Positions 178 to 20,920 of a DNA stretch of 23,823 nucleotides are shown here, piece by piece (positions within the stretch are counted from its first letter, which is position 1; each line of letters opens with the position of its first letter). The stretch is from a virus, in the IMG/VR virus record IMGVR_UViG_3300047322_000100, positions 1-23,823 of that record. One strand, 5' to 3'. The notes under the pieces are model-generated. The model was not told the origin of the DNA. It worked only from the letters and a program-made list of their open reading frames with translations, and did not search any database. Position numbers and translations under genes: made by a program.

Positions 178-1677
178 ATGACACAGATCTCGCTTGCCTA
201 TGACAGCGAGGTGCAGAAGTTGTTTCCAACTGCGCCCCTCGTGAACAATAACATCGTGCTGCCGCACGACGTGCTGACCACCAAGGTGCTTTCCAACATA
301 GGGTACGACGTGCCCTCCAGCTTGAGCCACTATCGTTGGCCGAGCCAGCGCCAGCCGTTCGACGTGCAGGTGCAGACGGTGGAGATGCTGATCCACCATC
401 AGCGCGCCTATGTACTCAGTTCAATGGGCGTCGGCAAAACCTCATGCCCGATCTGGGCGTTCGACCTGCTGAAGAAACAAGGCTACGCTAAAAAGATGCT
501 GGTGGTCGCGCCGCTGAGCACGCTCTCGTTCGTGTGGCTGCGCGAGATCTTCTACAGCGCGCCCCATCTCAAGGCGGTGGTGCTCCACGGTTCGCGCGAG
601 AAGCGTCGCGATCTTCTCAAGGCCAACGTGGACATCTACATCATTAACCACGATGGTATACCCACGGTCATCGAGCAGCTTGTCAAGCGCACCGACATCG
701 ACGTGATGGTGCTGGATGAGCTTGCCGTTTACCGCAACAACTCCAAGCGCACCAAGATGATGCGCTACCTTGCCCAGCACAAGCCGACGGTGTGGGGGAT
801 GACGGGTGCGCCGACACCCAACGCGCCCACTGATGTTTACGAGCAGGCGAAGATTATCACCCCGGATCGTGTGCCAAAGTATTTTACCCGGTTCCGCGAC
901 GAACTCATGCTGAAGGTGAGCCCCTTCAAATGGGTGGCGAAGAAAGACGCCACGCAGAAGGCGTTCGACGCGCTCCAGCCAAGCGTCAGATTTGTCCTTG
1001 AGGACGTGACGGAGTTGCCCCCCTACGTATCGCGCCGGATCGACATCCCAATGGGCAAGAAGCAGGCGCACGTCTACGAGGAGATGCGCAAGCACGCGTT
1101 CACGCTGGTCGGTCAGCATAAGATAACAGCGGCCAATGCCGGTGCCGTGCTGAGCAAGCTGCTCCAGATAAGCTCGGGGTGGGTGTATTCAAAGACCAAG
1201 GGGATCGTCACTCTCGATAACGACGACCGGGTTACCACGGTGGTAGACCTTGTGGAAGCCAGCGACAGCAAACTGATCGTGTTCGCGGCATTCAAGAGTG
1301 CGCTGGCAGGTCTGTCCGAGGCGCTGACCAAAACAGGACACGACAACATCATCGTCTCGGGTGATACTCCCGCCTCCGAGCGTGACCGGATCTTTCACGC
1401 CTTCCAAAACACGAACCAGTACAAGGTGATCGTGGCGCACCCGCAGTGCCTCGCGCATGGCATCACGTTGACGCGCGCCAACACCGTCATCTGGTTCACG
1501 CCGATCACGTCGCTGGAGATTTACGATCAGGCGAACGCTAGGATCAGGCGCGTCGGTCAAGCCACGAAACAGCAGTTCATTCACCTGCAGTCGAGCAAGA
1601 CCGAGGACAAAATTTACGGCTTGCTTATCAACAAGGGAGACATCCAGAGTGCGCTGCTGACGATGTTCGAAAGTTAA
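178..1677 (+). CDS. SNF2-type superfamily 2 DNA helicase
   Basis: This 499-residue protein has the ordered motifs of a superfamily 2 ATPase of the SNF2/RapA type. Walker A is MGVGKT at about residues 83-88. A motif Ia-like stretch, VVAPLSTLSFVW, follows. The motif II box reads DELA (about 180-183) instead of DEAH. MTGAPTPN resembles motif III, and the C-terminal lobe ends in QANARIRRVGQ (about 451-461), the arginine-finger motif VI. Family knowledge says such phage enzymes translocate on duplex DNA and help replication, recombination or removal of bound proteins; which one applies here is unknown. The length fits a bare two-lobe helicase with no added domains. The start is the first ATG after the upstream stop, preceded by AGGGTAACC, a weak ribosome site. 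It heads the visible replication block, and two copies of the dispersed palindrome lie inside it. Confidence 0.9.
   Translation: MTQISLAYDSEVQKLFPTAPLVNNNIVLPHDVLTTKVLSNIGYDVPSSLSHYRWPSQRQPFDVQVQTVEMLIHHQRAYVLSSMGVGKTSCPIWAFDLLKKQGYAKKMLVVAPLSTLSFVWLREIFYSAPHLKAVVLHGSREKRRDLLKANVDIYIINHDGIPTVIEQLVKRTDIDVMVLDELAVYRNNSKRTKMMRYLAQHKPTVWGMTGAPTPNAPTDVYEQAKIITPDRVPKYFTRFRDELMLKVSPFKWVAKKDATQKAFDALQPSVRFVLEDVTELPPYVSRRIDIPMGKKQAHVYEEMRKHAFTLVGQHKITAANAGAVLSKLLQISSGWVYSKTKGIVTLDNDDRVTTVVDLVEASDSKLIVFAAFKSALAGLSEALTKTGHDNIIVSGDTPASERDRIFHAFQNTNQYKVIVAHPQCLAHGITLTRANTVIWFTPITSLEIYDQANARIRRVGQATKQQFIHLQSSKTEDKIYGLLINKGDIQSALLTMFES
645..659. promoter_or_regulatory. Dispersed palindrome, copy 1 (10/12)
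   Basis: TAACCA-CGA-TGGTAT. The inner core ACCA-NNN-TGGT is perfect. It lies inside the SNF2 helicase gene. Read by eye against the consensus TTACCA-NNN-TGGTAA. Confidence 0.5.
1232..1246. promoter_or_regulatory. Dispersed palindrome, copy 2 (11/12)
   Basis: TTACCA-CGG-TGGTAG, with the consensus G just before it. It is inside the SNF2 helicase gene. The single mismatch is at the last arm position. Confidence 0.65.
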
Positions 1678-1705
1678 CAACTGTTTAACTAGTTCAAGTA
1701 AGTGC

Positions 1706-1734
1706 TTGACAAACCTATGTAGTTGTGCCATAAG
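1706..1734 (+). promoter_or_regulatory. Sigma70-type promoter for the replication operon
   Basis: A perfect -35 box TTGACA (1706-1711) is followed by a 17-nt spacer and CATAAG (1729-1734), which matches the -10 consensus TATAAT at four of six positions. It sits in the 117-nt gap after the helicase gene, in an AT-rich patch that contrasts with the GC-rich genes on both sides. Transcription would start near 1741 and read into the 131-aa gene and the genes after it. The motif and spacing are seen directly; activity is inferred. Confidence 0.7.
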
Positions 1735-1740
1735 AGACGA

Positions 1741-1759
1741 CCCACCAGTAATAGGTGGG
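1741..1759 (+). other. Stem-loop at the predicted 5' end of the mRNA
   Basis: CCCACC (1741-1746) and GGTGGG (1754-1759) form a perfect 6-bp stem with the loop AGTAATA. It begins about 7 nt after the -10 box, so it would sit at the very 5' end of the transcript. Stem-loops in that place are known to protect mRNAs from 5'-dependent decay, and that role is inferred here. No T run follows, so it is not a terminator. Confidence 0.5.
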
Positions 1760-1794
1760 GCCAACAAAACGACCAGATGACCAACGGAGCAACC

Positions 1795-2190: not shown

Positions 2191-2192
2191 TA

Positions 2193-2207
2193 TAACCAAA
2201 GAGGTAA
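2193..2207. promoter_or_regulatory. Dispersed palindrome, copy 3 (10/12), in a gene gap
   Basis: TAACCA-AAG-AGGTAA followed by the consensus C. It fills most of the 24-nt gap between the 131-aa gene and the next gene. Its right arm contains most of the Shine-Dalgarno sequence GAGGT, so a bound protein, or pairing within the mRNA, could affect translation of the next gene. Confidence 0.55.
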
Positions 2208-2214
2208 CTTTACC

Positions 2215-3363
2215 ATGGCCAACGAGATCATGATCCCTGCAGGGATGATGCCCTCCACGAAGTTCGCCCAGTCGAGGGTGTCGCACGACGACCTTGGCGC
2301 GGGCATCGTCGCGGGCTTTGCGGTGATCAGCTACAAGGGCAAGGTGTGGCGCGTGAAGCATCGTGGCGAGGAGAAGATGCTGATGCGCCCCGACGAGCCG
2401 GGTGTGCCGCAGGCGTTCATCGAGTGCGTGATCGTCAAGGCGAGCCCTGCCATCGCCAAGATCTACTACAAGGGCACCTACGCCGAGGGTGACATGAGCC
2501 CGCCTGACTGCTGGTCGGTCAACGGTGTCGCGCCTGACCCCGCTGCGCCTTCGAAGCAGTCACCCACCTGCGCGGGCTGCCCGATGAACGCGTGGGGCTC
2601 CAAGGTGACGGCCAACGGTCGCGCCACCAAGGCGTGCCAAGACAGCAAGCGTCTGGCCATCGTGCCTGCCAACGACATGGCGAACGAGATGCACGGCGGG
2701 CCGATGCTTCTCAGGGTTCCGCCTGCTTCGCTGGCTGACCTGTCGCTCTACGGGGCCAAGCTCAAGCAGATCGGCGCGGATTATTTCTCGGTGGTCACGC
2801 GGGTCGGGTTCGACGCCAACGAGGCGTACCCCAAGTTCACGTTCGCCGCGACGCGTGGGCTCAACGACGCCGAGGCTGACGTGATCCTGCCGATGCAGGA
2901 GGATCCCCGCGTGACGCGCATCCTGCAGGAGGCTGTGGATCACGTGCGCACCGACGGGGCAGCGCCAGCAGCTACGCCAGCGCCAGCAGCCAAGCCTGCC
3001 GATGACCTGACGCCGCCCGACTTCCTCAAGCGGACGGCTACCGCACCCGCCACCAACGGGACGCAACCCACGCCACCCGTGACCAAGACGGTGGCCGAGG
3101 TGACGGCCAAGCCTGATCCCCAGCAGGCCGAGATCGAGGCGCTCAAGGCCAAGCTCGCGGCCCTGCAGGGAGGCGAGGGGGTTACCCCGGTGGTCAAGCG
3201 CACCCGCAACAAGGCGGCCACGCCCACCGTCGCGCCGCCGTCGCCTGCGCCTACGCCCGAGCCCGTCGCAGCTACGCCTGCGGCCCCGGCTGAACCTGCC
3301 CCTCCTGCAAGCGCCAGCGAGGCGCTGCAGAGCATCGAGAACGAACTCGACAACCTGCTCTAG
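2215..3363 (+). CDS. Four-cysteine phage protein with acidic tail, possible ssDNA-binding protein
   Basis: A 382-residue protein. Residues 1-240 are a folded-looking domain with cysteines at about 99, 119, 122 and 141 (PDCW, TCAGC, KACQ), a likely zinc site. After residue 245 it becomes a long Ala/Pro/Thr-rich linker broken by a short helical charged stretch (PQQAEIEALKAKLAALQGG) and a basic patch (VKRTRNKAA). It ends in an acidic, hydrophobic tip, IENELDNLL. A folded domain plus flexible linker plus acidic tip is the layout of single-strand DNA-binding proteins, and the gene sits directly before the primase-helicase, so an SSB-like or recombination role is inferred. No OB-fold signature can be confirmed by eye. 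The start ATG follows GAGGTAACTTTACC, with the Shine-Dalgarno core GAGG. A copy of the palindrome lies near its 3' part at 3182-3196. Confidence 0.8.
   Translation: MANEIMIPAGMMPSTKFAQSRVSHDDLGAGIVAGFAVISYKGKVWRVKHRGEEKMLMRPDEPGVPQAFIECVIVKASPAIAKIYYKGTYAEGDMSPPDCWSVNGVAPDPAAPSKQSPTCAGCPMNAWGSKVTANGRATKACQDSKRLAIVPANDMANEMHGGPMLLRVPPASLADLSLYGAKLKQIGADYFSVVTRVGFDANEAYPKFTFAATRGLNDAEADVILPMQEDPRVTRILQEAVDHVRTDGAAPAATPAPAAKPADDLTPPDFLKRTATAPATNGTQPTPPVTKTVAEVTAKPDPQQAEIEALKAKLAALQGGEGVTPVVKRTRNKAATPTVAPPSPAPTPEPVAATPAAPAEPAPPASASEALQSIENELDNLL
3182..3196. promoter_or_regulatory. Dispersed palindrome, copy 4 (10/12)
   Basis: TTACCC-CGG-TGGTCA preceded by the consensus G. It is inside the linker-coding part of the four-cysteine protein gene and is nearly identical to copy 2. 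Confidence 0.45.
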
Positions 3364-3370
3364 GACCCCC

Positions 3371-3398
3371 TGCCCCTGCCTGTGACGAGGCAGGGGCA
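3371..3398 (+). other. Strong intergenic hairpin before the primase-helicase gene
   Basis: TGCCCCTGCC (3371-3380) and GGCAGGGGCA (3389-3398) form a perfect 10-bp GC-rich stem with an 8-nt loop. It lies in the 58-nt gap between the four-cysteine protein and primase-helicase genes. No T run follows, so it is not a standard intrinsic terminator. It may be a processing, stability or pausing site, or may space out translation; that is inference. Confidence 0.6.
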
Positions 3399-3421
3399 CC
3401 GTCCTCAGGAGGAGGTGCACC

Positions 3422-6394
3422 GTGTTCGTTCAATCGTTCGACGACGCTGCCCAGTTCCTTGCCCGCGCACTGCCATGGCCGTTGGCGGGCGAGCCCAACT
3501 GGTTTGTGAACATCCACCACAGCTTCGTGCCGCCCAACGGGACACGCCCGCTGTTTCCGGGGCGCGCCTGCACGACTGTCAAGGAAGCCGTGGCGTGTGT
3601 TACTTGGGCGAGCACGCTGCCCAAGTCCGACATCTACGTGTGCATGAGCGCACAGTCCGAGGCGAGCCAGCGTGTCGGCAAGACCGGCAAGCCATGGATG
3701 GCAGCCAAGCGGCTGGCTGCCAACGCGATCTGGCACAAGAGCCTGTTCATCGACGTGGACGTGAAGGAAGGTGCCTACGCGAGCACGCAGGAAGCCGCAC
3801 AGGAGTTCCGACGCATCAGGACCGAGATCGGCCTACCCGAACCCAGCATCGCGATCCTGAGTGGCTCTGGCGGCTTCCACGTGCACTGGATCTTCGTCGA
3901 GCCGATCAGGGGCATGCGGTTCCTCAAGCTGGCACAGGCCCTCGTGGCGGCGCTCCAGAAGCATGGCTTCAAGGGCGACACGGGTGTCTCGATAGATGGC
4001 GCGAGACTGCTGCGCATACCTAACACGTTGAACTGGAAGCATGATCCGCCCAAGCCAGTGAAGGTAGGTACCAACTCAGGCAGCGACTATCTGGTCGAGA
4101 CCCTTGAAGATGTCCTTAGTCCTTATGTGGGTATTGTTACCACGAAGGTAATCCCCCAGCAGACCCTCGCCAACATGCCTAACTTGTTGATTTCAAACAA
4201 GTTTAAGGCTTCGAAGCTGGCCGGGGATGACCTTGCCGCAGGGTTCTCTCAGACGATCCCGTTGTCTGCCGTCGAACGAGTTTGCCCGTGGGTGGCGAAC
4301 ACAGTGGCAACAGGTGGCGCGACCAACAACAATCCTCTGTGGTTGGCCTCGACCAACCTGAGTTTGTTCTTAGACGAAAGTCGTAAGTCCTGTCACGCGA
4401 TGGCATCTGGTTACGTAAACTATTCACAGGCTGAGACCGACGCGCTCTACGACAGGCAGGAGCAGACCAAGCTCGCACGCAATCTGGGCTGGCCTCAGTG
4501 CCGGTCGATCCATTCGAATGGTGCATCCGAGTGTGCCTCGTGCCCAAATCTGGCACTGGGCAAGTCGCCGCTCAACTTCGCCACGCTGGTCGCACAGGTG
4601 CCGCCAGCGTCCACACCTGCCGTTACCAGTGTGGTAACCCCTGCCCCCATCTCAATGGTGCTGCCCGAGGGCTATGTGTACGGCGTCAATGGTATGCAGG
4701 GCATCGTCTGCAAGATCGAGACGGACGACGCGGGCGTGCAGCGCACGGTGGCGATCACCGAGCGCCCCATGATGAACGGCTGGCTGCAGGAGGACCCGAA
4801 CATCCTCCACTTTGAGACGATCTCGTCGGAGGGCAAGGGGGTCAGGCAGGTGGCGATACCCCAGAACCTGATCGGCAACGTCGATAAGTGGAGCACCCAC
4901 TGCACCGACAGCGGGTTGTTTATCCAGTTAAAGCATAGGAAGGAAGTCATGGCCTTTCATTCATCGTGGATCAGCAAGCTCAAGGAAGATCGCGCGGCGA
5001 CGATCAGCACGGTGCCCTTCGGCTGGCTGGTCGAGGATGGCGTGCGACAGGGCTTCGTTTATGGGGGGCACCTGCATACGCCCACGGGATCCAAACCGGC
5101 AGGCAAGGTCGATAGGGCGCTCGCGGAGAGGTACACACCCAAGGGAACGATCCAGCCTTACCTCGATGCGCATCAGATGCTGATCGCACAGCGGCGGCCC
5201 GCCGCCGACGCTATGCAGGCGATCAGTTTCGCCTCGCCCCTCGTGGCGCTGATCGGCCAGACCGGCTTCGTCATGAGCGTTTACTCACAAGAGAGCGGCA
5301 TCCAGAAAACCAGCGCGCTACGCGTCAACGCCAGCGTCTGGGGCCATCCATGGAAGTCGATGCAGAAGCTCGATGACACTACCAACGCAGTGTTCAGGAA
5401 GGCAGGTCAGATCCGACATCTGCCTATCGTGTGGGACGAGCTTCGCGCAGGTGACGACGCTCAGAAGTTCAGCGACTTCGTGTTCCAACTCTCGGGTGGC
5501 GTCGAGAAGGCTCGCCTCAAGGCGACGACCGAGTTCCAGAGCGTGGGCGACTGGGCGACGATCCTCGTGGGCGCGTCGAACAACTCCCTCCTGAGTGCCA
5601 TCAACAAGGCCAACAAGGCGACCGAGGCAGGTGCAATGCGCATCTTCGAATATGTGGTTCCTCGGGCCACGCAGGGGATCATCAGCACAGCCGACGCTAC
5701 CATGATGGTAAGTACGCTCGACGAGAACTACGGCGTGGCCGGTATGATGTACGCCAAGTTCCTTGGCGAGAACTTCGACGTGGTGCGCGACGCGACCTTG
5801 GCTCGGCTCAAGGACTATGAGATCCGCTGCGGCGCGCGTCCCGAGGAGAGATTTTGGTTTGCTCTTATAGCTTGCCTGCAGCAGGGCGCGACCTACGCCA
5901 ACCAAGTGGTGGGCACCAGCTTCGACCTGCTTGCGCTGGAGAAATTCCTGATCGACACCCTGCAGGGCATGCGCACGGCCAAGCTCGACACGACCGTCAA
6001 CATGAGGGATCCGATCAACCTGTCGGAGATGCTCTCTAGGTACCTCAACTTCCAGCGCGCCGAACATACAGTCGTCACCGACAGGCACATCTCGCGTCAC
6101 ATCAAGGCGACGGCAGCGATCAAGTCCGACTTCAGCCGCCTCAAGGAAGCTCACGTCCATATCACGCAGGACGACGGGCACCTGAGACTGCGGCTGGCGG
6201 CGTTCAACGAATGGCTTGACAAACAGAAACTGCCATCTACTATTATATTGAACGAGTTAAAGAACCAATTCGGCGCGACCTACACCAAGCAGTCGCGGCT
6301 GGCTTGGGGGACCAACTTTTTAACCCAACCTGACCAGTGCCTGACGTTCGACTACCGGCACCCCGGCTTCCCGCCCAACTGGGCACCCTACTAG
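3422..6394 (+). CDS. Primase-helicase (AEP-type primase plus P-loop helicase)
   Basis: A 990-residue replication protein. The start is GTG at 3422, supported by the strong Shine-Dalgarno sequence AGGAGGAGGTG just upstream. The N-terminal third resembles archaeo-eukaryotic primases: FIDVDVKE (about 109-116) carries the metal-binding D-x-D, SGSGGFHVHW (about 147-156) the nucleotide-binding motif with histidine, and SIDGARLLRIPNTLNW (from about 190) the third motif. A spacer with cysteines (ASECASCPN) follows. The C-terminal half looks like a DUF927-type superfamily 3-like helicase: a P-loop-like ESGIQKTS (about 624-631), a Walker B-like LPIVWDE (ending at about 673) and a sensor-like VGASNNS. 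The P-loop has Gln where the glycine before Lys is expected. It would make RNA or DNA primers and unwind the fork. Three copies of the palindrome lie inside, and an AT-rich patch near the 3' end may hold a promoter. Confidence 0.85.
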   Translation: MFVQSFDDAAQFLARALPWPLAGEPNWFVNIHHSFVPPNGTRPLFPGRACTTVKEAVACVTWASTLPKSDIYVCMSAQSEASQRVGKTGKPWMAAKRLAANAIWHKSLFIDVDVKEGAYASTQEAAQEFRRIRTEIGLPEPSIAILSGSGGFHVHWIFVEPIRGMRFLKLAQALVAALQKHGFKGDTGVSIDGARLLRIPNTLNWKHDPPKPVKVGTNSGSDYLVETLEDVLSPYVGIVTTKVIPQQTLANMPNLLISNKFKASKLAGDDLAAGFSQTIPLSAVERVCPWVANTVATGGATNNNPLWLASTNLSLFLDESRKSCHAMASGYVNYSQAETDALYDRQEQTKLARNLGWPQCRSIHSNGASECASCPNLALGKSPLNFATLVAQVPPASTPAVTSVVTPAPISMVLPEGYVYGVNGMQGIVCKIETDDAGVQRTVAITERPMMNGWLQEDPNILHFETISSEGKGVRQVAIPQNLIGNVDKWSTHCTDSGLFIQLKHRKEVMAFHSSWISKLKEDRAATISTVPFGWLVEDGVRQGFVYGGHLHTPTGSKPAGKVDRALAERYTPKGTIQPYLDAHQMLIAQRRPAADAMQAISFASPLVALIGQTGFVMSVYSQESGIQKTSALRVNASVWGHPWKSMQKLDDTTNAVFRKAGQIRHLPIVWDELRAGDDAQKFSDFVFQLSGGVEKARLKATTEFQSVGDWATILVGASNNSLLSAINKANKATEAGAMRIFEYVVPRATQGIISTADATMMVSTLDENYGVAGMMYAKFLGENFDVVRDATLARLKDYEIRCGARPEERFWFALIACLQQGATYANQVVGTSFDLLALEKFLIDTLQGMRTAKLDTTVNMRDPINLSEMLSRYLNFQRAEHTVVTDRHISRHIKATAAIKSDFSRLKEAHVHITQDDGHLRLRLAAFNEWLDKQKLPSTIILNELKNQFGATYTKQSRLAWGTNFLTQPDQCLTFDYRHPGFPPNWAPY
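4137..4151. promoter_or_regulatory. Dispersed palindrome, copy 5 (11/12)
   Basis: TTACCA-CGA-AGGTAA with the consensus G before it. It is inside the primase-helicase gene, just after the primase domain. The innermost pair is A opposite A, so it would not pair as an RNA stem. Confidence 0.65.
4623..4637. promoter_or_regulatory. Dispersed palindrome, copy 6 (perfect)
   Basis: TTACCA-GTG-TGGTAA inside G...C, giving perfect 7-bp arms from 4622 to 4638. This is the best copy in the window. It lies in the linker between the primase and helicase halves of the 990-aa gene, 486 bp from copy 5. Confidence 0.75.
5697..5711. promoter_or_regulatory. Dispersed palindrome, copy 7 (11/12)
   Basis: CTACCA-TGA-TGGTAA with the consensus G before it. 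It is inside the helicase part of the 990-aa gene. Confidence 0.65.
6216..6246 (+). promoter_or_regulatory. Possible internal promoter at the end of the primase-helicase gene
   Basis: A perfect TTGACA (6216-6221) lies inside CTTGACAAAC, the same ten bases that surround the -35 box at 1706. Nineteen bases later comes TATTAT (6241-6246), matching the -10 consensus at five of six positions. The spacer is long, so this is weak. The patch uses codons rare in the neighbouring sequence (ATA, TTG, TTA), as if AT-richness were kept for a reason. It would serve the 83-aa gene. Confidence 0.3.
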
Positions 6395-6403
6395 GAGACA
6401 ATA

Positions 6404-6655
6404 ATGTCCGACAACTACTGGTCGCCCGACAGCGCCTTCAAGATCAGCGAGAGCGCCGTGAAACTGACAAGGGAATACCCCCGCAACGACGCCCAGAAAA
6501 TGGCAGCGGCGATGATCACCATGATGGAGGACGTACGTCACGCCCACCCGGAGGCGGGGCGTCACGCCTCGCTGGCAATCACTGCCATCGAGGAGGCATT
6601 CATCTGGATGCAGCGCGCCATCAACGACGTGGTTATTTCTGCGCCCGATGCGTGA
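6404..6655 (+). CDS. Small helical protein, weak resemblance to Acb2-type anti-CBASS sponges
   Basis: An 83-residue protein starting at the ATG after TAGGAGACAATA, a strong Shine-Dalgarno sequence that overlaps the stop of the primase-helicase gene. It is all-helical in character. Its C-terminal half, GRHASLAITAIEEAFIWMQ followed by RAI, follows the pattern of the last helix in Acb2-like proteins, small phage proteins that bind cyclic di- and trinucleotides and so blunt CBASS defence. The N-terminal half does not show the motif I remember for that family, so the link is tentative. It is the last gene of the + strand operon, a usual place for small accessory or anti-defence genes. Its last 23 bases overlap the end of the convergent HNH gene. 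It may instead be an unrelated small helical protein. Confidence 0.75.
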   Translation: MSDNYWSPDSAFKISESAVKLTREYPRNDAQKMAAAMITMMEDVRHAHPEAGRHASLAITAIEEAFIWMQRAINDVVISAPDA

Positions 6656-7218: not shown

Positions 7219-7230
7219 GGCTGGATCCTC

Positions 7231-7458: not shown

Positions 7459-7466
7459 GCTACCTC

Positions 7467-8273: not shown

Positions 8274-8288
8274 TTACCACACTGGTTA
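8274..8288. promoter_or_regulatory. Dispersed palindrome, copy 8 (11/12), in a gene gap
   Basis: TTACCA-CAC-TGGTTA with the consensus G before it. It spans the stop codon of the 2392-aa gene (8286-8288) and the gap before the 55-aa gene, covering that gene's ribosome site. A further half site, TGGTAA, follows at 8290-8295. Confidence 0.65.
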
Positions 8289-11200
8289 TTGGTAAGCGTA
8301 GGTAGCTTTAGCACGCTCACCAATCTCAGGCACCTTCTTGTTGACCCGTGCCCCAGCGGGAAGTCCCTGACGCAACGCGTCGGCGTCGGACCTGCGCGCG
8401 GCGCGCTCGGCCTTGATCAGGTCGCCACGGTTAATCTTGGCATGGCTCGATCCCTGTTGGGCGTTCCAACGATCAATCGCGTCCTGCGCATCCTGCCGCT
8501 CGGCGGGCGAGGTAGCCTTCACCCAGTTGCCCTTCAACGAAGTCTCGTTCTTGCTGAAATCCTGTCCCTGACCGTAGATGGTATTCTTGGCAGCGGCAGC
8601 CTCGGCAATGCGCGAGGGCCTGAAGCCAGCCCCCTGCACGAACGCCTCGTAGCCCGTCAACTGCTCGCCCGCCTTGCGTCCTGACGGGTTGGTCTTTTGC
8701 GACATCATGTTGATCGTGCCCTTGGCGCTGTCGCCCAGCACCTTAATGGGCGAGAGCTTGGGCGCGGCGTTGGCCCAATTACCATTGGCAACATCGTGCA
8801 GTCCATCAAGGAACTCCATCACCATGCTGGGCGCAGAGCCTGCCATCCACTTGGCATAGTAGTTAAAGATGTCGTCCTGCTTGCCGGACTTCGGTGCGCC
8901 GAACGGGCTAAGCAACTGGTTCAATCCCATGCGCGAAGCCGTGTCGATGCCAAAGAAAGTATTCACCGCACCCGTCGAGACGAACTGACCCACCTCCTTG
9001 CCGAAGTGCGCGGCAAGCGTCTCGCGGAAAGTGTTGGTGAGCGTGTCGCTGGTCTCGTCGGTAAGCCCCATCGTGTTGGCGACGTTGACCGCCATGAGGA
9101 TCGGCTCGGTGGGAAGTCCCAGCGCGCCCGCCATGATGAAGTGCGTGCCCATCAGCAAGCCGAACGCCTTGGCGTTCTCCAGCTTGTTGGGTCCTTTGAG
9201 CATGCCACCACCCAGCTTACCAAGCAGGTAATACTGGCGCTGGCCGTACTTGTGAAACTGCAGAGCCAGCCTGCCCAGCGGTTTATTGAATATCGGTGGC
9301 GCGTTCCAGCGATCATACGAGCCCATTGTGTTGTCAATCGCTTCAGCCGCCTTCTCGACAGCATGCTCATGGCTCAGGCCCTTCTCCTTGGCCAGCCAGT
9401 ACGCCGTCAGCCCCACCACGGATCGGTTGATCGCTTCAATCGACTGACCCATCTGACGGGAGATATGGTCAGCACGATCAAGGGTACGGCCTGCGATGTT
9501 GGTGCTATCCGATGCCAGCTTGGAAAACTCCATGCCTGCGTCGCGACCGATCAGCCCCCTGTCTCCAAGATCATCGAGCGCCCGCTGGTCGTCGCCCTTA
9601 AGCCGGTCACGGATACGCCCGCCGAAATCCATGCCCTTGTCGCTGGCAAACGCCTTGCCAGTCTCCTTGATGCCTTGCCATGCAATGTCGCGACCACCTA
9701 TCGCAGAGTAGGCGCGACGCATCATGGTCATCGACTTCCACAGACCATGCTCGCCTGCAAGGTAGGGCAAGCCGATCATCCATGGTTCCTGCGCGTTGAT
9801 CACATGGAACGCAGGGCTGGCCAACCGCTTCATGTAGCTCACCTGCAGCAGACGGTTGATCACCCGCTGGGTCAGGCTGTCCTTGTCAGGTGGTGCCACC
9901 TGATCGCGCCGCTTGTCGAACTCGTTCATCACCGCTGAGCGCAAGTAGGCATCCTTGTCGGCAGCGTTGAGCTTGACCTGCTCCTTCATCGCATCGACGA
10001 CGCGATTGATGTGCGGGCCATACTCCAGACGGGCGACGTAGCCTGCGGTCGAGTGTGCGTACTCGGCAAGGTTGGACGACAGATCCTCGCTGGCTCCCAG
10101 CACGTTCCTGCGGGGAAGTCGCCGGGACTGGACGCGTGTACCCCCAAGCACCCGCAGCGAGTGCTGAGAGAGCACGTCACGCAGCACCTGCTGGTCAGCC
10201 GTATCCAGCTTGGAGAAGCCTTCGGATTTCTCCATGGCGTTGCGCACAGAACGTATCTCGTCAGACAAATCATCGCCGTGAGCATGCTTCTCGTAGGCGC
10301 GCTGACCGCTCTCGGTCAGCTTGAAGCCCTTCACGTCGGCCATCGAACGCTTGGCAAGCTCCAGATCGGTCGCTGACCTATGGTACTGGACCTCCTTGTT
10401 CTGAAGGGTCGTGTGGATCCGCTTGTCATAGTTGGCGGCGATGAACGCATCACGTGCCTTGATCGCGTCGGCACGATTGGCGTGAACTTCGTTCTTACCA
10501 CCATAGTTAGTTTCGTATTCGCCCTTGGCGTTTTTCTTGGGCTGAGGCACGCTCTCGGCCTTGTTGGTTTTCTTGTTGATCAGCTTCTCGCCCGTGTTCA
10601 TCGCCTTGAAGTCGCTGCCCTCGATGAACGGCTTAGCCGTGGCTTCGTCGGGAAACTCATAGGTATTGAACTCGTGAGCACGGTCGGTGTGCATCGTGTT
10701 CGTCGGATCGAACGTCTCGCCTGCCTTGTCCAAGCGTCGCACTTGACCGGGCGCGTCGGCAAGCTCGTGGTAACCAGAGAGGTAATGGTTGCCGCGCCTC
10801 ATGAGCGGCGTGTAGGGACCAGCGATCTCGGCCAGTGCCCTGATGTCCTTGAGGCGTTTGGCGGCAGGGCCTATCGCAAGGATGTTCTTGTAGAGATCGT
10901 TCAAGGGATGCGTGTCGGGACGCTTGTTACGCAGCCACTGCTTGAAGTCGTCCATGCCTGCCTTGTCATGGATGGGCGCGCCTACCGCCTTGGCCTTCTC
11001 CGTCTCGCGGATCATGTCGGTGAGTTCATCCACGGTGTTATCCGAGAGGAAGTCCGACATCGCCTTCTGGCTGCGCTCGTAATAGCTGTGTTCCTCCCTG
11101 CGCTGATCCTTGAGTGCATCAGGCAGCATGGCGTAACGCTTCTCCAACTCAGGCAGGCGCGCCAGCGACTGGGCGTGGTCGAGCTTTTTGGGATCGAGAT

Positions 11201-14200
11201 GCTTGTTGCTCTCACCGCCTATGTACGCACCGTTGACCGTCTCGTCGTGCCTCAGGTTGGTATAGAAATCCCACATCGAGCCGCCCTTGCCGTCGGGCGA
11301 GGTTCCCTCCAGACCATACTGGCGCTGAAGCTCGTAGCTCCTGCGCGTCAGATCCTCGGCACCCGTGGTCTTGAGCAGTTTCTCAGCGCGGGCGTTCATG
11401 CGCTCATGAAGCTCGTTGTACACACGCGACAGAGGCTTGTCGGCCATGCCCTTGCGAAGGTCGTCGGGCAGGAGATCCAGCGCACGAGCGGCGATCTTGG
11501 AGTTTTTCGCCAGAGCGTCGAGCCTGCCGAACAGGTGATCCATGCCCTGCGCGATTTGTTTGGTCGTCTTGGCGTTGAGCATGATCGCCTTCCAGCGATC
11601 CATGAAGGTCGATCCCGACGCCCTGCTGCGCAGCACCTGCTGGGTGATACCCCTGCGGATGCTGTCACCTGTAGGCATGTGCATGGGCAACAGGCTACCA
11701 CCTTCGGCTGCCGCGTTGACACGCCGGTCGGAGCGGCTGTCAGTGATCTCGGTGCCCCGCTGCATGGCATCTTCGTTCATGCGCATCAGCGCATCGAGCA
11801 TCGACATCTTCGGGCGCGGGATGCCCAGAGCGCGAGCGATTAAGCCGACGAAGGCGCGATACATCGACATCTTGACGGTCGGCTTGGGCAGGCCCTGCAC
11901 GTAGGCAACCACGTCGCGAGGCGCTTCCATGGTGCTTAACTCGTGCACCATCGTGTAGTTGCTCATGCCCTCGGTGAGGAACTCCCTCGGGTCGGTGAGG
12001 CCATACTGGGTCTTGTCGCCGCTCGCCTTTTTGTATGCCTCGTACAGACTGTCGGTGTGATGCTTGAAATCCACGTCCCTGTCATACGCCTGTATCGTGG
12101 CGCTGTGGCCGAACTCGTGGATCAGAACGAAGTCATGGGCTTCCGACAGGTTAGGATGCAGCAGCCGCTCGGGCATGATGATCCGGCCCCTGATCATTGC
12201 ACCGGAAGCCTCGCCTGCGTTGCGAGCAAACACGCCACCCATCTGGGTGCCGTCCCTGCCGAACGCATAGCGGGTGAACTCGTGCCAGTCCTTATCCGAG
12301 ATGTAGTCAACCGGAATGTGCGGCACGACGGAACGCATGCGTGCAACCAGTTCCATAACGTGCTTGAAGTACGCCTCGGCTTCGGGCGGATCTTCCGGCC
12401 CCAGATCCTTGAGGGTTTTCTTGAGGCTCTCGTAGAGGTTCTTCAGCGCCTCGTGACCCTTGAGACGCTTGAGCGACTTGTAGGTGAACCGCTTGTCAAC
12501 CAAGTGGTCGGGCAGGAACGGCCCGTTCTGGTTGCCCGCCCTCTCGTCGTACTTGACGCTGACCGTCGGCCCCTTCGCGCCCAGATAATCGTCGCCCTCG
12601 TCCACTGAAAAGCCGTGCTCGCTAAGATCTTCACGCTCTCCCTCTTGACGGCCTGTGCGCTCAGTCTCGTGCTCCTCATCTCCCATTCCCAAATGCTCGG
12701 CACCTGACGCGAGGTCATCCTCCCCCTCCTTCAGAGTGCCCTTGCGCGTCTCACCCGCACGCTGCTTCTCGGTACCGCCACCACTGCGTTCGTTCTGCGT
12801 GCGCTGCTTCGAACGCTCCTCACGCCGTTGGCCAAGATCTTTAGTGTTCCCTTCACGCAGGTAATACATCGTCTCAAGATGATCGACGAAGCCCTGATTG
12901 ATTTTAGCCGCACGCAAATCACGTGCCTTGAGTGAGCCGTGAACCTTGGGGTTTTCACTATGTTGCGTATCCCAACGCTTGATCAGCGCCTTGGTATCAC
13001 GCAACGCGTTCAAGACGTTCTGCTTGACCTTGCCTTCCTTCGACCACTTGGCGACACCCGAGATCGTGGAGTTGGTCTTATCCTCGATGTCGCTCACCAT
13101 CTTGCGGGCACGTTCAATTACCCGCTTGCGAGCCACGTCGCGGTTAGCATTTGAAACCAACGCAGCAGCGGCAGCTTCCTCGTCGCCGTGGGCTACGTGA
13201 TCTTCCGACAGATTTTCGATGTGCTCCTTGGCAGCGGCATGTGCCACTTCCTCAGTCGCCTCGGTCTCAGCCTTGCGCTCGGTGCGCGTCTCAGCGGCGC
13301 GCTGCAGGTTCTCGGCTTGCAGCTTAGCCGTCTCAGCCTTGTGCGTAGCCGCCTCGTGTTCTTCCTCCATCGTCCGATGGAGTTCCTCGACCGTCGGGAT
13401 GTCGGCAAACTTGACGGGGCGGCCCGCAGCTTTGTCGGCAGCGCGCTTCTCGCGATCCCGCTTGACGAGTTCCTCGCGCCGCGCCTCAGCCCGTGCCCGC
13501 AGATCCACAGCCGGTGCTTCCGCGACAGCAGCAGCGACCTTCTCCTGTTGTGCTGCTGCGTCGGCTTCCTTGGTGCGCGCCGTGGTTTCCTTAGGGGTGT
13601 CGTACTTCCTGACGAGTACCTTCTCGCCGTTACGCTCAGTCTCGGTCCACGTGAATTCCTTGCCCAGCTTGTCGGTACCCCGGTCGCCCGCCTTGGTAGC
13701 CTCCTTGGGCTGGGTACCCTTCTTCTGCAGAGCCTCGACCTGCTCGCGCGCCAGCGCCGCCGCCTTCTGGTTGGCCGTCTTGGTACCCGCCGCTGCCTCG
13801 GCTTCCAACTCGGCACCGCGTGCCGCTGACCGTGCGATGTCAGCTTGCTCCTCGGGCGATGCCACCTGTTCACCGGCAACGGGCTCTGGCTTAGGCGTTA
13901 CATCAGGTGCTTTCTTGGCAGCATCCTTCGCAGCTTTGGCAGCGACTTCCCTTGCAATTTTGATTTCCTTGACCGCAGATTGCGTCACGCCGTGGTTGGC
14001 ATGGCTCTCGCCTTCGTTGTGGGCTGCTTTCCAGAGATCGTATTCATCTTGAAACTGCTGGTGCCCGAACGCCGGATCAGCGTGGGCATTACCCACTACT
14101 CGGTCATGGAACTGCTGGTAGGTTTCACGTGGTGCGGTGGGAGGAGTTGGTGCAGTTGGTGCTGTTACTTCCGTGGTAACTGGTGGAGTAACTGGTGCGG

Positions 14201-15464: not shown

Positions 15465-15467
15465 CAG

Positions 15468-15482: not shown

Positions 15483-18400
15483 GTCATCTAATTTGTACTT
15501 CGGTGTATACAACGCACCAGCACCTTTCTTCAGGTTCCCGATGATCGACGTTGGCTCGGGCTGTTTCGCTTTGGACTTGCCTGCACGAATGCGCTGGGTA
15601 ATCGCCTTGTTCAACAACTCATGTTTCGTCGGGTCGATGTGGATCGGATGCGCCGTATCGAGATCCCACTTCTCAGGCTCGGGGATCTGGTTGGGCAGGG
15701 GCTTGCCGTCAGCGCCCATCTTCGGCTTTTTGAAAATAATGTTGCCGTCGTCGTCGCGCCTCGGGGTCTTGGGAATAAGGATCACGTTGCCTGCTCGGTC
15801 GTAGCCCCTGTTTTCCCACGAGCGCCAGTTAGGCCGGTCGGGATCGAACGCGGTCAGTTGAGCGAACGTATCAATGGCCCTGTCAGTGGGCATCCGGTTC
15901 TTAAGACGCAGGTCAGTGACCAGATCCCGAGTATCCTTGGGATCAACCACGAGCTTAGTCTTGGTCGTGCCACCAGACTTCACCTCGGTCGTCTGGTCGA
16001 ACACCGTCGTGCCCTTCTCGCTCTCGTCGGGTACAAACTTCTTGATCGCCTCGTCAGTGTCGGCAGCAGCCTGCTCTTGATCGCGAGTGCTGATGGTCCC
16101 ACCGTGAGCATCCTTGGCCTCTGCTTTCTGAGCTTCCGTGGCCTTGGCACGCTCCTCCTTGGCGATCCTCTCGTATTCTTTTTTGTTGGAGTTATATAAC
16201 TTCTGCGCGTCGGTGAACTCCTTCATACGCTCGTTGAAATGCTTGGTAGCTGCAGCGTAAGCGGCACCAAGCTGCTTGTTATTTTTCGCCTGCACGCCGA
16301 GCGTGTCGTAGCGTTCTCTCCAACCGGGATTGAACGCGTTATCCGCAGGGTTGTCCGAGGCAATGCGCGGGTCATGTGGCGGACGATCATCGGGATTTGC
16401 CGCCGAGTAATCCAGAACGGGTGGTTCAACAACCCGATTACCATTGTGGTAAATATCCTTGGGCGGATGCCAAGGATCAGGATCTTCGGTCGAAGCGTAG
16501 CGCGTCGGCTCGGGCTCCTGCGGCGGCGCAGTCTCAGGTGGACGATACCCTGAGGGCGGCGCATTCGCAGGCGCTGCGTCGGGCATGAGCGGCTGCGAGA
16601 ACGGCACCTGCGACGATGGTGTCAACGGCACCGCCTCGGGAGGGAGCGCAGGCGACACAGCCTCCGTAGGTGGCGTGCCACCGGGGATCAGCCCCTCAGT
16701 GTTGGTAAAAAAACCACGGCCCTGCTCCAGCCCACCTCCTTGGAAGGCGTGAACCAGCCCGCCCCTGCGGTAAGTTCCACCATCACCAGCGTCGCTGCCG
16801 CCGCTGGTGCCCGCCGCCGCGCCACCCGTACCGCTGTCGGTGCCACTGGCCGAGGCGCTGCCCACGCCACCTGAACCACCAACCGTGCCGCCCTCCGACG
16901 CCGTGCCGCCAACCGTGCCGCTGGTGTTCCCCGTAGCGGCGTTGGCACTGCCGCCAGTGGGATCGTTGACGTTTACCGCCAGCCTCAGAGGCGTCAGCGA
17001 CACTGCCTGATCAGGGGGCAAGGGATCAGCGACATCCTTCACCATGCCACCTTCAGCAAATATCTGGCTAGGCAATGGTCCAGCCGGTGCAGCGCCGCCA
17101 GCGCCACGGCGACGATCACGCTCCTCGGCGCGCTGCTCGCGCTTTTCAGCACGCTCGCCCGCCTCAATGGCACGCTGCTCACGGGCGTCGGCGCGCTCCT
17201 GCGCAAGCTCAGCCTTGTGCTGGGCTGAGTTCTGGTAACGGCTAAGCAACTCCTGATGAAACAGGGTGCCATTCTTCATGCCCGTCGCAGCGGTCCACAA
17301 ATTTTGCGGCGTATAGGACATACGTTTGACCACAGCGCCCTTGGGGTTCACGAACTCGACGCTGTTGCCCGCGCCCTTGCGCGCCGTCATGCCGTCAGGA
17401 ATGTGAAGGTTATACCCATCGAGGATGTGCTGCTCAGCGGTAATGCTGTCGCCCTTCTTGAGGGCGTCGAGCGCACCCTGACCATAATGCTGAAGCATCA
17501 TGTTGTGGTGCTGCAAAAGTTCCGCCGCAAACGCGTCAGCCTTCTTGGTGTCGCCATTCATCTTGTAAAACTGGTAACCACGTATAAGCCGCGCGGTCTG
17601 CCACTTGTCGTTCCTACTGATATTGAGCCCGTGCGCCCTGAGCCCCTGATCAATTCGATGCACCACGTCAGGTCCCGGCGCGCCGTGCCCAGCATGCAGC
17701 GCCTGCAAGCCAGCCGCCTTCTGCGGATCGGGCGCACCCGGCACCGCCGTCTGACGATTTTGATCGAACGTCTCGCGCAGGTGACGCACGCCACCTGAGA
17801 TCGCTTCGCTCAGCATGGCGTCCGGGTCATAGGGTGCCATCTGGCGCGCTTGGTTACCACTGGCGTCAGGGGCACCCAGCGCCACGGCGCTGGGCGTGCC
17901 GCTGGAGCCCGTCACGACGGTTCCGGTAGGGATGCTGCCCGGACCCTCCTTGTCAGGGTCGTAGGCTGCTGTGCGGGTCTGGGGAGGTGTAGCACCCGGA
18001 GGGGGAGGAGCCTGAGGTGCCGCACCTGTACCGCCGCCCGTGTTTGCGGGTGTCGTCACCGTCGGCGCGGTCGAAGCTGTCTGGGTAGGCGGTGGACCAG
18101 CCGGGGCTGGCATGGGAGCAACTGGCGTGCCCGGTGCCCCAAAAACTGTGCTCGGCATCCCCGCTGGCGAGGGTGTGACAGGGGCAGGAGGCGTGATAGG
18201 AGCCGCAGGCGCAGCGGGTGGCGCAGGAGGAGTGGTCGTCGCCGTAGGAGGCACGGGCACAGCCGACGGCTTGGGCGTCTCCTTCGGTGTTTCCTTCGGC
18301 TTTGCTTCTGCGTTGGTGGCAGACTGGCCATGCGACAGGCGGTAAACTTTCTCGTCGATTGCAGCAAGCTCAGCTTCCTCAGCTTTCTGCTGTTCCGCAG

Positions 18401-19259
18401 TCTGCTGGCGAAGCGGGTTACTTAACTCAGCACGCCGTTCCTGTAGTGCCTGCATTTCCTTAAAGCGAGCCTGCTGCTCGGATGCGTAACCGGGCTGATC
18501 CAACGATGCCCACCACCGGCCCAAAGCTGAAGTTGTCGCAGGCCCCGTAGATGCAACGGGTTCAGTAGGCACAGCAGATGGATCGCGCGCCCGAAAGTTC
18601 GGAGCGTTCTCAGCCGCAATGCGCGCTGTATCATCTTCGGTAGAAGGTAGGCGCGGCGCGGCAGGCCCAGACGGAGTAGGTGGCACAAGAGACTGGGCGG
18701 CAGCGCGTGCGCCTCCAACCGGCGTCGAGTAACCCGCCGCGCGCATGCTTTCTTCACGGTCGCGTGCATCGAGTTCGTCGTCAGACAAACCGGGATCGAC
18801 CTCGCCGGGTTGGCCGGGAGTGTTCTCAGCCTGAAACCTGCGCTGGTTGGCGCGCACAGCGCCTGCGCCGCTGCCACCATCACGGAAGCTACGCACGACC
18901 CCGCCGCCGTCGCGGTAATTACGAACCATGCCACCACGTGCACCACTCTGCTCAAGGGGCACGGCTTGCATTGTCGGCTGCTCGTTCCATACGTCGTTCT
19001 GAACTTCGCCAGCGGGGTCAACAGGCTCGTACGAGTGTCCGAGGATGCCGCCCGTGTTGCGATGTAACCATTCACTGACACTCCGCTTAGCACCACGAAC
19101 AGTAGCGCCGATGCCCCCGGCGTTGGGGCCAAGCACGTCGTCGATGTCAGTGTAGTCAGGCTGGTTCTGATTTCTCTTGTTGTATTTCGACATCGCGTTG
19201 CGGTTCAACGCTGTGTTCAGGCCGTCAGCGAAGCCACCGGCAAAGCCACCTATCCCCAT
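15480..19259 (-). CDS. Large low-complexity internal virion-type protein
   Basis: A 1259-residue protein with no enzyme motif that I can see. It begins with a Gly-rich segment (MGIGGFAGGFADGLNTALN). Two GG-M/V repeats follow (GGMVRNYRDGGGVVRSFRDGG spread over about 107-130), then long Pro/Ala/Thr-rich stretches (300-480) and a helical domain (about 490-720, with RNDKWQTARLIRGYQFYKM and LDGYNLHIPDG). An Arg/Glu/Ala-rich helix, a Gly/Ser/Thr-only stretch (about 760-825) with a further GGLV repeat, and a charged C-terminal region complete it. The layout suits an internal or ejection protein with flexible linkers between small domains. The ATG follows AGGAGCCTGATC, 2 nt after the stop of the 399-aa gene. 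The structural role is inferred from its neighbours and size, not from homology. Confidence 0.8.
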   Translation of the reverse strand: MGIGGFAGGFADGLNTALNRNAMSKYNKRNQNQPDYTDIDDVLGPNAGGIGATVRGAKRSVSEWLHRNTGGILGHSYEPVDPAGEVQNDVWNEQPTMQAVPLEQSGARGGMVRNYRDGGGVVRSFRDGGSGAGAVRANQRRFQAENTPGQPGEVDPGLSDDELDARDREESMRAAGYSTPVGGARAAAQSLVPPTPSGPAAPRLPSTEDDTARIAAENAPNFRARDPSAVPTEPVASTGPATTSALGRWWASLDQPGYASEQQARFKEMQALQERRAELSNPLRQQTAEQQKAEEAELAAIDEKVYRLSHGQSATNAEAKPKETPKETPKPSAVPVPPTATTTPPAPPAAPAAPITPPAPVTPSPAGMPSTVFGAPGTPVAPMPAPAGPPPTQTASTAPTVTTPANTGGGTGAAPQAPPPPGATPPQTRTAAYDPDKEGPGSIPTGTVVTGSSGTPSAVALGAPDASGNQARQMAPYDPDAMLSEAISGGVRHLRETFDQNRQTAVPGAPDPQKAAGLQALHAGHGAPGPDVVHRIDQGLRAHGLNISRNDKWQTARLIRGYQFYKMNGDTKKADAFAAELLQHHNMMLQHYGQGALDALKKGDSITAEQHILDGYNLHIPDGMTARKGAGNSVEFVNPKGAVVKRMSYTPQNLWTAATGMKNGTLFHQELLSRYQNSAQHKAELAQERADAREQRAIEAGERAEKREQRAEERDRRRGAGGAAPAGPLPSQIFAEGGMVKDVADPLPPDQAVSLTPLRLAVNVNDPTGGSANAATGNTSGTVGGTASEGGTVGGSGGVGSASASGTDSGTGGAAAGTSGGSDAGDGGTYRRGGLVHAFQGGGLEQGRGFFTNTEGLIPGGTPPTEAVSPALPPEAVPLTPSSQVPFSQPLMPDAAPANAPPSGYRPPETAPPQEPEPTRYASTEDPDPWHPPKDIYHNGNRVVEPPVLDYSAANPDDRPPHDPRIASDNPADNAFNPGWRERYDTLGVQAKNNKQLGAAYAAATKHFNERMKEFTDAQKLYNSNKKEYERIAKEERAKATEAQKAEAKDAHGGTISTRDQEQAAADTDEAIKKFVPDESEKGTTVFDQTTEVKSGGTTKTKLVVDPKDTRDLVTDLRLKNRMPTDRAIDTFAQLTAFDPDRPNWRSWENRGYDRAGNVILIPKTPRRDDDGNIIFKKPKMGADGKPLPNQIPEPEKWDLDTAHPIHIDPTKHELLNKAITQRIRAGKSKAKQPEPTSIIGNLKKGAGALYTPKYKLDD
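16438..16452. promoter_or_regulatory. Dispersed palindrome, copy 14 (perfect)
   Basis: TTACCA-TTG-TGGTAA, a perfect 12 of 12 with A on both flanks. It is inside the 1259-aa gene. Confidence 0.7.
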
Positions 19260-19261
19260 GA

Positions 19262-20461
19262 TCAGGCTCCTGCGTGCGCGTGGTTACCGAGAGGCACAGC
19301 TTGTCCGTGCAGCGATCCCGGTGAACGATAAGTGGGTGGCAGGTCAAGCGCCGGTTTGGCTTCCGGCTTGGCGGGCTTACCATCAGGGTTATGCTGGGCA
19401 GCACGCGCCTTCATGATCTCTTTCTGCGCCCACTCCTCGCCCTTCCAAGCCATCACGTCCTTGGGGAAAATAAACTCTCCCGGCTGCACGCGCGCAGGCA
19501 CATCGTCCTCGACGGCACCACGTGAAGGGGAGGCGCTCAACGGCACCGCCGAACCCGGTGACGGAGCGCCTCCCGCGCCGCCAGCCGTATCCCCGCCGTC
19601 GCTGAAGCTGGGGATCATGCCGCCGTCGGCAGCCATCATCATAGACCCTGCCGCACCGATCACCGAGCCCGCGAGCTTGCCCCACCCCGCGTTCTCCGCA
19701 GCGGTAGCTTGGTTACGAACGTCAGCATTGTGCGACGCATCCTGAAAAGCTGCCTGCGTGGTGTTCACAAACCCACCGAGGGCTTGGTTCCCGCCACCGA
19801 ACCAACCCAACGAATTACCCAGCATGGGCGACTGGGCAGTCATCGTGTTAATGCCTGCCCCAAGAGCCGAGGTATCCGCACCGACGCCGCCCGCGTAGGC
19901 TTGCTGGGCTGTACCGGCGACCTGCTGGCCTGTGCCGATGGCTTGGTTGATCAGGCCCTGACCTGTGGTCTCGGTGGCCCGTCGAGCGTTGTCCATGGCA
20001 CCCGCCTTGGCGGTAGCCTCCTTGAGCTTGATGCCTAGATCGAGCGCGCCGCCGCGACCCACTGAGGGATCCACGCCGTAGCGTTCCAAGTCACGGTTGG
20101 CTGCGTCACCTGCCGCCTTGAAGGCGTTGCTCACGCCAGCGCCAGCCTCGGCCTGCGCCTGCTTGATGCGCTCGGGCGACGCGTAGTTCATCGCGTACTT
20201 GGCCTGCGCTTCCTGCAGGGGGCCGTACATATCTTGGTACTTCTGGAATAGCTGCTGGCCGATGCCCAGTTGGCCTGCACCCGCTGCCAGCATCTGGGGC
20301 TGGATTTGCTTGAGCGCCTCGTCGAGCGTCGTGCCGTGGTCCTGCGCCCACTTCAGCGCAGTCCTCATGTTTTCATTGGCAGTGTTAAGCTGGGTTCCCC
20401 ACTGGGTATTCGCCCAAGTCATGTCGGGAGGTTTGGCGGTCTGGCCGCTATCACCGGACAT
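19262..20461 (-). CDS. Internal virion-type protein with C-terminal PGEF motif
   Basis: A 399-residue protein. The start at 20461 (MSGDSGQTAKPPDMTW) is preferred over a GTG at 20488 because GAGG lies about 8 nt upstream and overlaps the stop of the GNAT-like gene. Residues 1-200 are helical and Ala/Gln-rich (ALKQIQPQMLAAGAGQLG, PLQEAQAKYAMNYA), resembling small internal virion or ejection proteins of podoviruses. A Gly/Ala stretch follows (KLAGSVIGAAGSMMMA) with a GGM repeat, DGGMIPSFSDGG, at about 277-288. After a Pro/Ser linker comes VQPGEFIFPKDVMAWKGEEW, a PGEF-type motif that I associate with many phage structural proteins. It is the first of three adjacent large virion genes and has 2 nt before the next one. 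Confidence 0.8.
   Translation of the reverse strand: MSGDSGQTAKPPDMTWANTQWGTQLNTANENMRTALKWAQDHGTTLDEALKQIQPQMLAAGAGQLGIGQQLFQKYQDMYGPLQEAQAKYAMNYASPERIKQAQAEAGAGVSNAFKAAGDAANRDLERYGVDPSVGRGGALDLGIKLKEATAKAGAMDNARRATETTGQGLINQAIGTGQQVAGTAQQAYAGGVGADTSALGAGINTMTAQSPMLGNSLGWFGGGNQALGGFVNTTQAAFQDASHNADVRNQATAAENAGWGKLAGSVIGAAGSMMMAADGGMIPSFSDGGDTAGGAGGAPSPGSAVPLSASPSRGAVEDDVPARVQPGEFIFPKDVMAWKGEEWAQKEIMKARAAQHNPDGKPAKPEAKPALDLPPTYRSPGSLHGQAVPLGNHAHAGA
19377..19391. promoter_or_regulatory. Dispersed palindrome, copy 15 (10/12)
   Basis: TTACCA-TCA-GGGTTA, near the 3' end of the 399-aa gene. The left arm is perfect. Confidence 0.4.
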
Positions 20462-20465
20462 AGGA

Positions 20466-20915
20466 TTACCTCGTGCGTTCGACCCCACAGCTTTGGTGGA
20501 GGGTTAGCCAACGGCAGCCGTCAAGGTACATCGAAAGGACTACCAAGTCACCTCCGGGTACCGCATCTCGTAGGATGGCCTCGGGCTTGAACCCCAGCCC
20601 TGTGGCAAACCTGATCGTCTCAGGTCGGGTGCCGTCGATCTGGGCGAAAACCTTCTCAACTCCTAGTTGAAGAAATACGTATCCAAAGCTCGCCACTAGG
20701 AGGTGACGGTTGAGCCAGCGCGGATGGAACTTGGCAGCGTGAATACAGATCGAGCGCCGCCTGTAGCGATCAAACAAGAACCCTCCCATGAGGCCCTGCT
20801 TGTTGACCCTCGCAATGCAATGGTCCCAACCCTCCACGAAGGGCGCATCCAAGTTGCCTTGTGAGATCTGAACCGCGAACGCCTTCCCATGGAACGGGTC
20901 GTCGATTACCACCAT
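20466..20915 (-). CDS. GNAT-like acyltransferase of phage type
   Basis: A 149-residue protein starting MVVIDDPFHGKAF. Its C-terminal half, LGVEKVFAQIDGTRPETI, ATGLGFKPEAILRDA, GGDLVVLSMYLDGCRW, follows the order of GNAT N-acetyltransferases: the strand leading to the acyl-CoA site, an Asn/Thr helix, the LGF turn, then the last strands. Similar small GNAT-like genes sit among virion genes of many podovirus-like phages; their target is not established. The usual pyrophosphate loop (Q/RxxGxG/A) is not obvious, so catalysis is uncertain. The start codon lies inside copy 16 of the dispersed palindrome, 6 nt after the stop of the M15 peptidase gene, and the ribosome site is weak. Confidence 0.75.
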   Translation of the reverse strand: MVVIDDPFHGKAFAVQISQGNLDAPFVEGWDHCIARVNKQGLMGGFLFDRYRRRSICIHAAKFHPRWLNRHLLVASFGYVFLQLGVEKVFAQIDGTRPETIRFATGLGFKPEAILRDAVPGGDLVVLSMYLDGCRWLTLHQSCGVERTR

Positions 20916-20920
20916 GGTAA
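20906..20920. promoter_or_regulatory. Dispersed palindrome, copy 16 (perfect), at a start codon
   Basis: TTACCA-CCA-TGGTAA followed by the consensus C. The start codon of the GNAT-like gene (20913-20915) is inside it, and it covers most of the gap after the peptidase gene. This is the rightmost copy seen; none was found from 20921 to 23823. Confidence 0.75.

Follow-up and report, generated by a model that had tools for sequence, protein, structure and literature searches.

The virus fragment IMGVR_UViG_3300047322_000100 from IMG/VR (23.8 kilobases [kb]; the whole stretch of 23,823 nucleotides is called the window here) carries 16 dispersed copies of a 15-bp palindrome, TTACCA-N3-TGGTAA. A large phage group has this site in common, the specificity of the site changes within the group, and its copies are evenly spaced, all of which goes beyond the original prediction of such a site in the window. 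Comparison of sequences suggests, with about an even chance in our estimate, that the palindromes are bound by a sequence-specific protein of the phage itself, probably of the unannotated family A3, which would act as an autoregulated brake distributed over the genome. A few temperate phages are known to have dispersed operators. In the present case, palindromes that respect a minimum spacing and whose recognition code changes are maintained throughout a group of environmental phages, some of which lack an integrase, and one unannotated protein family tracks the palindrome array.

A palindromic DNA site shared by a phage group

All 16 predicted copies, of which three are perfect, six have one mismatch and seven have two, were verified in the window. 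Dinucleotide-preserving shuffles of the window contained 0.21 copies on average and 2 at most. Synonymous-codon shuffling per gene (300 runs) gave a mean of 5.4 copies, which also counts copies located in unshuffled DNA, and a maximum of 8, so that a count similar to the observed one was not reached in either control. Chance and codon usage are thus excluded as the source of the copies.

A nucleotide search of phage records with the window returned no close match. Relatives were found via its primase-helicase; they comprise the 62.5-kb genome G002 (82% identity), G003 and G004 (35%), and the cultivated Rhizobium phage RHph_TM27A (37%; TM27A in the following). Matches to the major capsid protein include Puniceispirillum phage HMO-2011, Roseobacter phages and Pelagibacter phages, placing the group near the HMO-2011-type podoviruses. 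The pattern predicted in the window occurs 63 times in G002, and G003, G004 and TM27A contain its half-sites too, in most cases separated by 6 bp. A further 160 loci were fetched via alignments of capsid and terminase; the palindrome is present in many of the close relatives among them, with spacers of 5 or 6 bp and none of 3, 4, 7 or 8 bp. In most complete genomes, the site emerged as the strongest signal of an untargeted palindrome discovery, and per-genome weight matrices detected 18–93 sites in each of 24 records (62 in TM27A). The general form is GTTACC-N5/6-GGTAAC, at roughly one copy per kb, with the half-site variants GTTACT, GTTACA, GCTACT and GTCACT in some genomes. The palindrome was not found in Pseudomonas phage Rollin and in G010–G012. 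The relative G009 (L262–L265), in which A3 was not detected, has a different array, with 23 copies of the continuous palindrome TTACTCC-N-GGAGTAA. In L069, L064, L072, L075, L128 and L191, palindromes of the form ACCGG-N5-CCGGT or GGTCC-N4-GGACC are very frequent; they are probably coding repeats, possibly of Gly-Pro repeat proteins, and were put aside.

Twelve of the 16 window copies have a counterpart in G002, defined as a site no more than 40 bp from the aligned position and with no more than two mismatches over the fixed TTACC/GGTAA arms, compared with 7.8% of random positions. In four genes, the window and G002 agree at every third codon position within the arms (20 of 20), as against 63% of such positions outside them (Fisher p = 1e-4). 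Two sites have been preserved in G002 despite flank identities of 38% and 54%. Sites hence persist in relatives while their flanks diverge. Across 1167 sites, the two arms are no more complementary than independent arms would be; as the arms do not co-vary, an RNA hairpin is rejected in favor of a DNA site, presumably bound by a dimer. The spacers of 5 and 6 bp put the half-site centers 10 and 11 bp apart, respectively, which corresponds to one helical turn. Arm independence, codon shuffles and persistence between diverged flanks support the view, taken in the original prediction, that the palindrome is a DNA–protein site rather than an RNA hairpin.

The palindrome belongs to the phage and not to the host, because its counts in two Bradyrhizobium genomes (8.7 and 7.9 Mb) match the reversed control (one and four exact copies versus two and one) and most of the hits sit on known or presumed phage contigs. 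Three of the four copies in the 7.9-Mb genome are on its phage contig, and the single copy in the other genome is on contig 42, which we take to be its phage contig. A host-genome site is excluded by this lack of enrichment. In the Bradyrhizobium isolate assemblies L297 and L298, related phages are represented by a whole 60.6-kb contig and a 61-kb contig with phage late genes.

Layout of the array and the candidate reader A3

Most sites of TM27A are intragenic; nevertheless, 21 of its 62 sites are intergenic, compared with 9.4% of the sequence (p = 1e-7), and 28 lie at most 40 bp from a gene end, where 10 are expected. The distances between sites are more regular than expected: of the 22 genomes tested, 19 show a local variation of 0.23–0.62, while block-matched random placement yields about 1 in the majority of these genomes; evenness was not significant in G009, G025 and G026. 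Gaps shorter than 200 bp are 2- to 5-fold rarer than expected. Random placement within the same coding and non-coding classes failed to reproduce the evenness in TM27A.

The density of sites follows the position of the A3 gene. In 17 genomes, it peaks at 2.65 per kb in the kilobase directly 5' of this gene, compared with about 0.5 per kb farther upstream, amounts to 1.8–2.7 per kb for 6 kb in the 3' direction, and falls to 1.1 per kb past 15 kb. Sites line the A3-led operon at intervals of approximately 300–1000 bp and become sparser through the late genes. In 15 of the 17 genomes, the 150 bp preceding the A3 start contain a site; a promoter scan of this upstream region was uninformative.

A3, a phage protein of about 245 amino acids (aa) without annotation, corresponds to EVB29_028 of TM27A (gene 18372–19100). 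Its gene lies outside the 23.8-kb window and is present in the sister phage G002. All 14 largely complete genomes with GTTAC palindromes that were compared encode A3, as opposed to none of four relatives without the palindrome, and each of 15 loci fetched by a scan of IMG/VR with A3 alone was site-dense. In 33 pairs of A3 and site, the A3 residues that change together with the base following TTAC are concentrated in the segment GGKKANVSKLR, to which nine of the 20 top-ranking columns belong. This clustering was not matched by any label permutation, and p was 0.01 with close relatives collapsed. Eight other families, including a terminase small subunit-like protein and core proteins, did not co-vary with the site on comparable sets (p = 0.17–0.85), which leaves A3 as the only one of nine families to do so. 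The original prediction had envisaged a phage-coded binder, for which A3 is now the candidate.

The predicted structure of A3 is all-helical (mean predicted local distance difference test score, pLDDT, of 88), with GGKKANVSKLR starting a predicted helix at residues 93–110, and includes a long C-terminal helix. A Pfam search with A3 detected no domain and no helix-turn-helix (HTH) match; the co-variation nonetheless resembles that of a recognition helix. Two good matches of the model in a viral structure library are uncharacterized or unnamed proteins. Two other candidates for a common reader were rejected. An XRE/HTH_3 repressor scored above the cut-off in G009 and G014 only, and a winged-helix protein encoded beside the DNA polymerase is missing in the site-bearing genomes G002, G005, G008 and G020. 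This latter group comprises L040:34663-34977 and its homologs, small proteins which, judged by eye on an alignment, resemble OmpR/PhoB-type winged-helix proteins and occur in some relatives only.

Possible functions of the array

The location of a site 5' of the A3 gene and the density gradient along the early operon favor an autoregulated, distributed brake on early transcription. An A3 dimer would occupy two GTTACC half-sites with centers 10 or 11 bp apart, one helical turn, the bases after TTAC being read by the N-terminal part of one A3 helix. From gene content and order we infer that the A3-led operon is early; A3, at its head, would be made early and repress its own operon, and, through many weak transcription brakes across the genome, early transcription would drop as A3 builds up. 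Dimerization, direct binding, early expression and transcriptional braking are all steps that we infer.

Several observations weigh against this proposal. The A3 model had no clear match to a known or DNA-binding fold in structure libraries, and the shorter 23-site palindrome array of G009 occurs with no detectable A3 homolog. Omitting G006 and G023 weakens the co-variation to p = 0.1, a preference for C persists in some A3 proteins whose key position is K or V, and A3-positive and A3-negative phages differ by clade as well. Two further families, represented in TM27A by 30500-31273 and by a 72-aa protein at 8356-8574, share the presence pattern of A3. The density in the early operon could partly result from weaker coding constraint there.

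A more far-reaching interpretation, which we consider possible and clearly less probable than the brake, is that A3 represents a new DNA-binding fold forming early, genome-wide and evenly spaced nucleoprotein arrays, a kind of phage chromatin, with a diversifying recognition code and independent of lysogeny. An architectural role proper, in which A3 bound at even intervals would organize, compact or shield the infecting DNA and regulation would be secondary, appears rather unlikely. In its favor, the spacing is far more even than random, with short gaps depleted and with gene structure providing no explanation in TM27A, and sites extend through the late genes; the long C-terminal helix of the A3 model would also suit it. 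However, a purely structural role predicts uniform density, and the observed density is biased to the early operon and declines away from A3.

The closest known systems are the stoperators of Cluster A mycobacteriophages (L5 gp71, Bxb1 gp69), of which each genome contains tens of short copies, enriched between genes, with a consensus that differs between relatives (PMC3029335). The array described here resembles them in the dispersal of 18–93 copies per record in 24 records and in the change of consensus between relatives, which in our phages is accompanied by co-variation of A3. Cluster A stoperators, however, are asymmetric 13-bp sites in a single orientation, whereas the present sites are palindromes of 15–18 bp with equivalent arms and two spacers; moreover, they are mostly intragenic, evenly spaced and also found in phages without integrase, and the candidate reader lacks a recognized HTH domain. 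Of the stoperator precedent invoked in the original prediction, dispersal and changing specificity therefore stand, while asymmetry, single orientation and a mainly intergenic location do not. The array may work similarly, yet should not be classed as stoperators. The Bxb1 stoperator consensus GTTACGWDTCAAG starts with GTTAC, like the half-site described here (PMC3029335), which is probably a coincidence.

Strict stoperators, at which a repressor conferring immunity would stop stray transcription and so keep the prophage silent, seem doubtful for these phages. Dispersal and a specificity that varies from one relative to the next, both known from Cluster A (PMC3029335), would fit them, as would the tyrosine integrase encoded in about half of the genomes and the whole 60.6-kb relative inside a Bradyrhizobium isolate assembly; no serine recombinase was found in the genomes tested. 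On the other hand, mean site density is equal in genomes with (1.05 per kb) and without (1.06 per kb) an integrase, A3 is located at the head of the early operon and not in a separate immunity region, and G014 has an XRE-type HTH protein of its own. The equal density makes it unlikely that lysogenic silencing is the only role of the sites.

Other known systems share single features with the array. Start-associated sequences of Cluster K mycobacteriophages are asymmetric 13-bp repeats, in 11–19 copies, at gene starts and with a ribosome-binding motif (PMC3203893). They resemble the junction copies only, as a minority of the sites studied here are at starts. In phage P1, too, many repressor sites, those of C1, are dispersed around one genome; the P1 operators, however, are asymmetric and far fewer per kb, in contrast to the palindromic, denser array described here. 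The Cro protein of phage lambda acts at six clustered operators; A3 would be like Cro in being an early-operon product that presumably represses its own operon, and unlike it in having 18–93 sites genome-wide. In the papers found on palindromes and spacing in phages, with few subscription journals covered, no such array was described.

That the sites are read by something other than A3, either a host-coded protein or a member of the two further phage families with matching occurrence, is judged improbable to a similar degree as strict stoperators. Both families have the same presence pattern as A3. Against such a reader, host genomes are not enriched in the site, no co-variation with specificity was seen for the 30500-31273 family (p = 0.34), the 72-aa proteins are of low complexity and rich in glycine, and the winged-helix protein near the DNA polymerase is absent from four site-bearing genomes.

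It is very improbable that the sites serve as centromeres or in the partition of an extrachromosomal prophage. Phage N15 has dispersed centromere sites, and one whole relative forms a contig of its own in a Bradyrhizobium assembly, but the N15 precedent raised in the original prediction was not borne out: no protein with a ParB_N domain (PF02195) was detected in 18 genomes, no A3 relative was found among 72,556 plasmids, and 20–90 sites per genome far exceed what partition needs. The least probable reading, RNA hairpins that control translation at ribosome-binding sites, could draw on the many junction copies containing a stop codon and a GAGG motif and on the 7–15 sites per genome that end 1–25 bp before a called gene start (about 2 expected), yet these are just 7–15 of 59–93 sites in each of ten genomes, the majority of sites being intragenic, the spacers 5 and 6 only, and the arms without co-variation.

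A distributed brake read by A3 would assign a function to an unannotated family, and its site–reader pairs would serve for learning how A3 reads DNA. The cultivated phage TM27A, of which near-identical isolates exist, opens the way to binding, expression and knockout tests.

Copies and neighboring genes in the window

The copies are compiled in Table 1 together with two genes of the window. A genome-trained weight matrix added a 17th, weaker copy 5' of the helicase gene and further candidates at 22754 and 17854, which are weaker and uncertain. By comparison with TM27A and G002, the helicase gene is the far end of the early operon.

Table 1. Palindrome copies and selected genes in the window, with counterparts in the relative G002
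Feature	Position	Strand	Remarks
Additional weak copy TAACTATCAGGGTAA	161..175		3 mismatches; ends 2 bp 5' of helicase ATG; orthologous copy in G002 at 15838, at equal distance from the same gene
SNF2-type DNA helicase gene	178..1677	+	Pfam and PHROGs
Copy 1	645..659		In helicase gene; identical in G002 at 16355
Copy 2	1232..1246		In helicase gene; G002 counterpart at 16942
Copy 3	2193..2207		Between two genes; G002 counterpart at 17949
Copy 4	3182..3196		In gene 2215–3363; G002 counterpart not found
Primase-helicase-like gene (DUF927)	3422..6394	+	Query used for finding relatives
Copy 5	4137..4151		In primase-helicase gene; identical in G002 at 20079
Copy 6, perfect	4623..4637		In primase-helicase gene; G002 counterpart at 20562
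Copy 7	5697..5711		In primase-helicase gene; identical in G002 at 21639
Copy 8	8274..8288		Overlaps stop codon of 2392-aa gene; G002 counterpart at 24637
Copy 9	9217..9231		In 2392-aa gene; G002 counterpart with three mismatches
Copy 10	10495..10509		In 2392-aa gene; identical in G002 at 26889
Copy 11	10771..10785		In 2392-aa gene; G002 counterpart not found
Copy 12	14165..14179		In 2392-aa gene; in G002, arms perfect and flanks 38% identical
Copy 13	15468..15482		Gene junction; G002 counterpart not found
Copy 14, perfect	16438..16452		In 1259-aa gene; also perfect in G002 (32902)
Copy 15	19377..19391		In virion protein gene; G002 counterpart at 35841
Copy 16, perfect	20906..20920		Gene junction, overlaps start codon; perfect copy in G002 at 37322

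The gene L040:42248-45331 of RHph_TM27A is labeled "putative integrase", yet its product is homologous to the DUF927 primase-helicase-like protein of the window; judging from this homology, the label is probably a misannotation. The protein of 83 aa encoded at 6404–6655 (+) of the window matches the Acb2/Tad1 hairpin domain above the Pfam cut-off (PF24729, E = 1.3e-7) and is a possible sponge directed against the cyclic oligonucleotide-based antiphage signaling system (CBASS). The C-terminal part of the 2392-aa protein encoded at 8286–15464 (–) matches DarB-like antirestriction proteins and other giant phage proteins.

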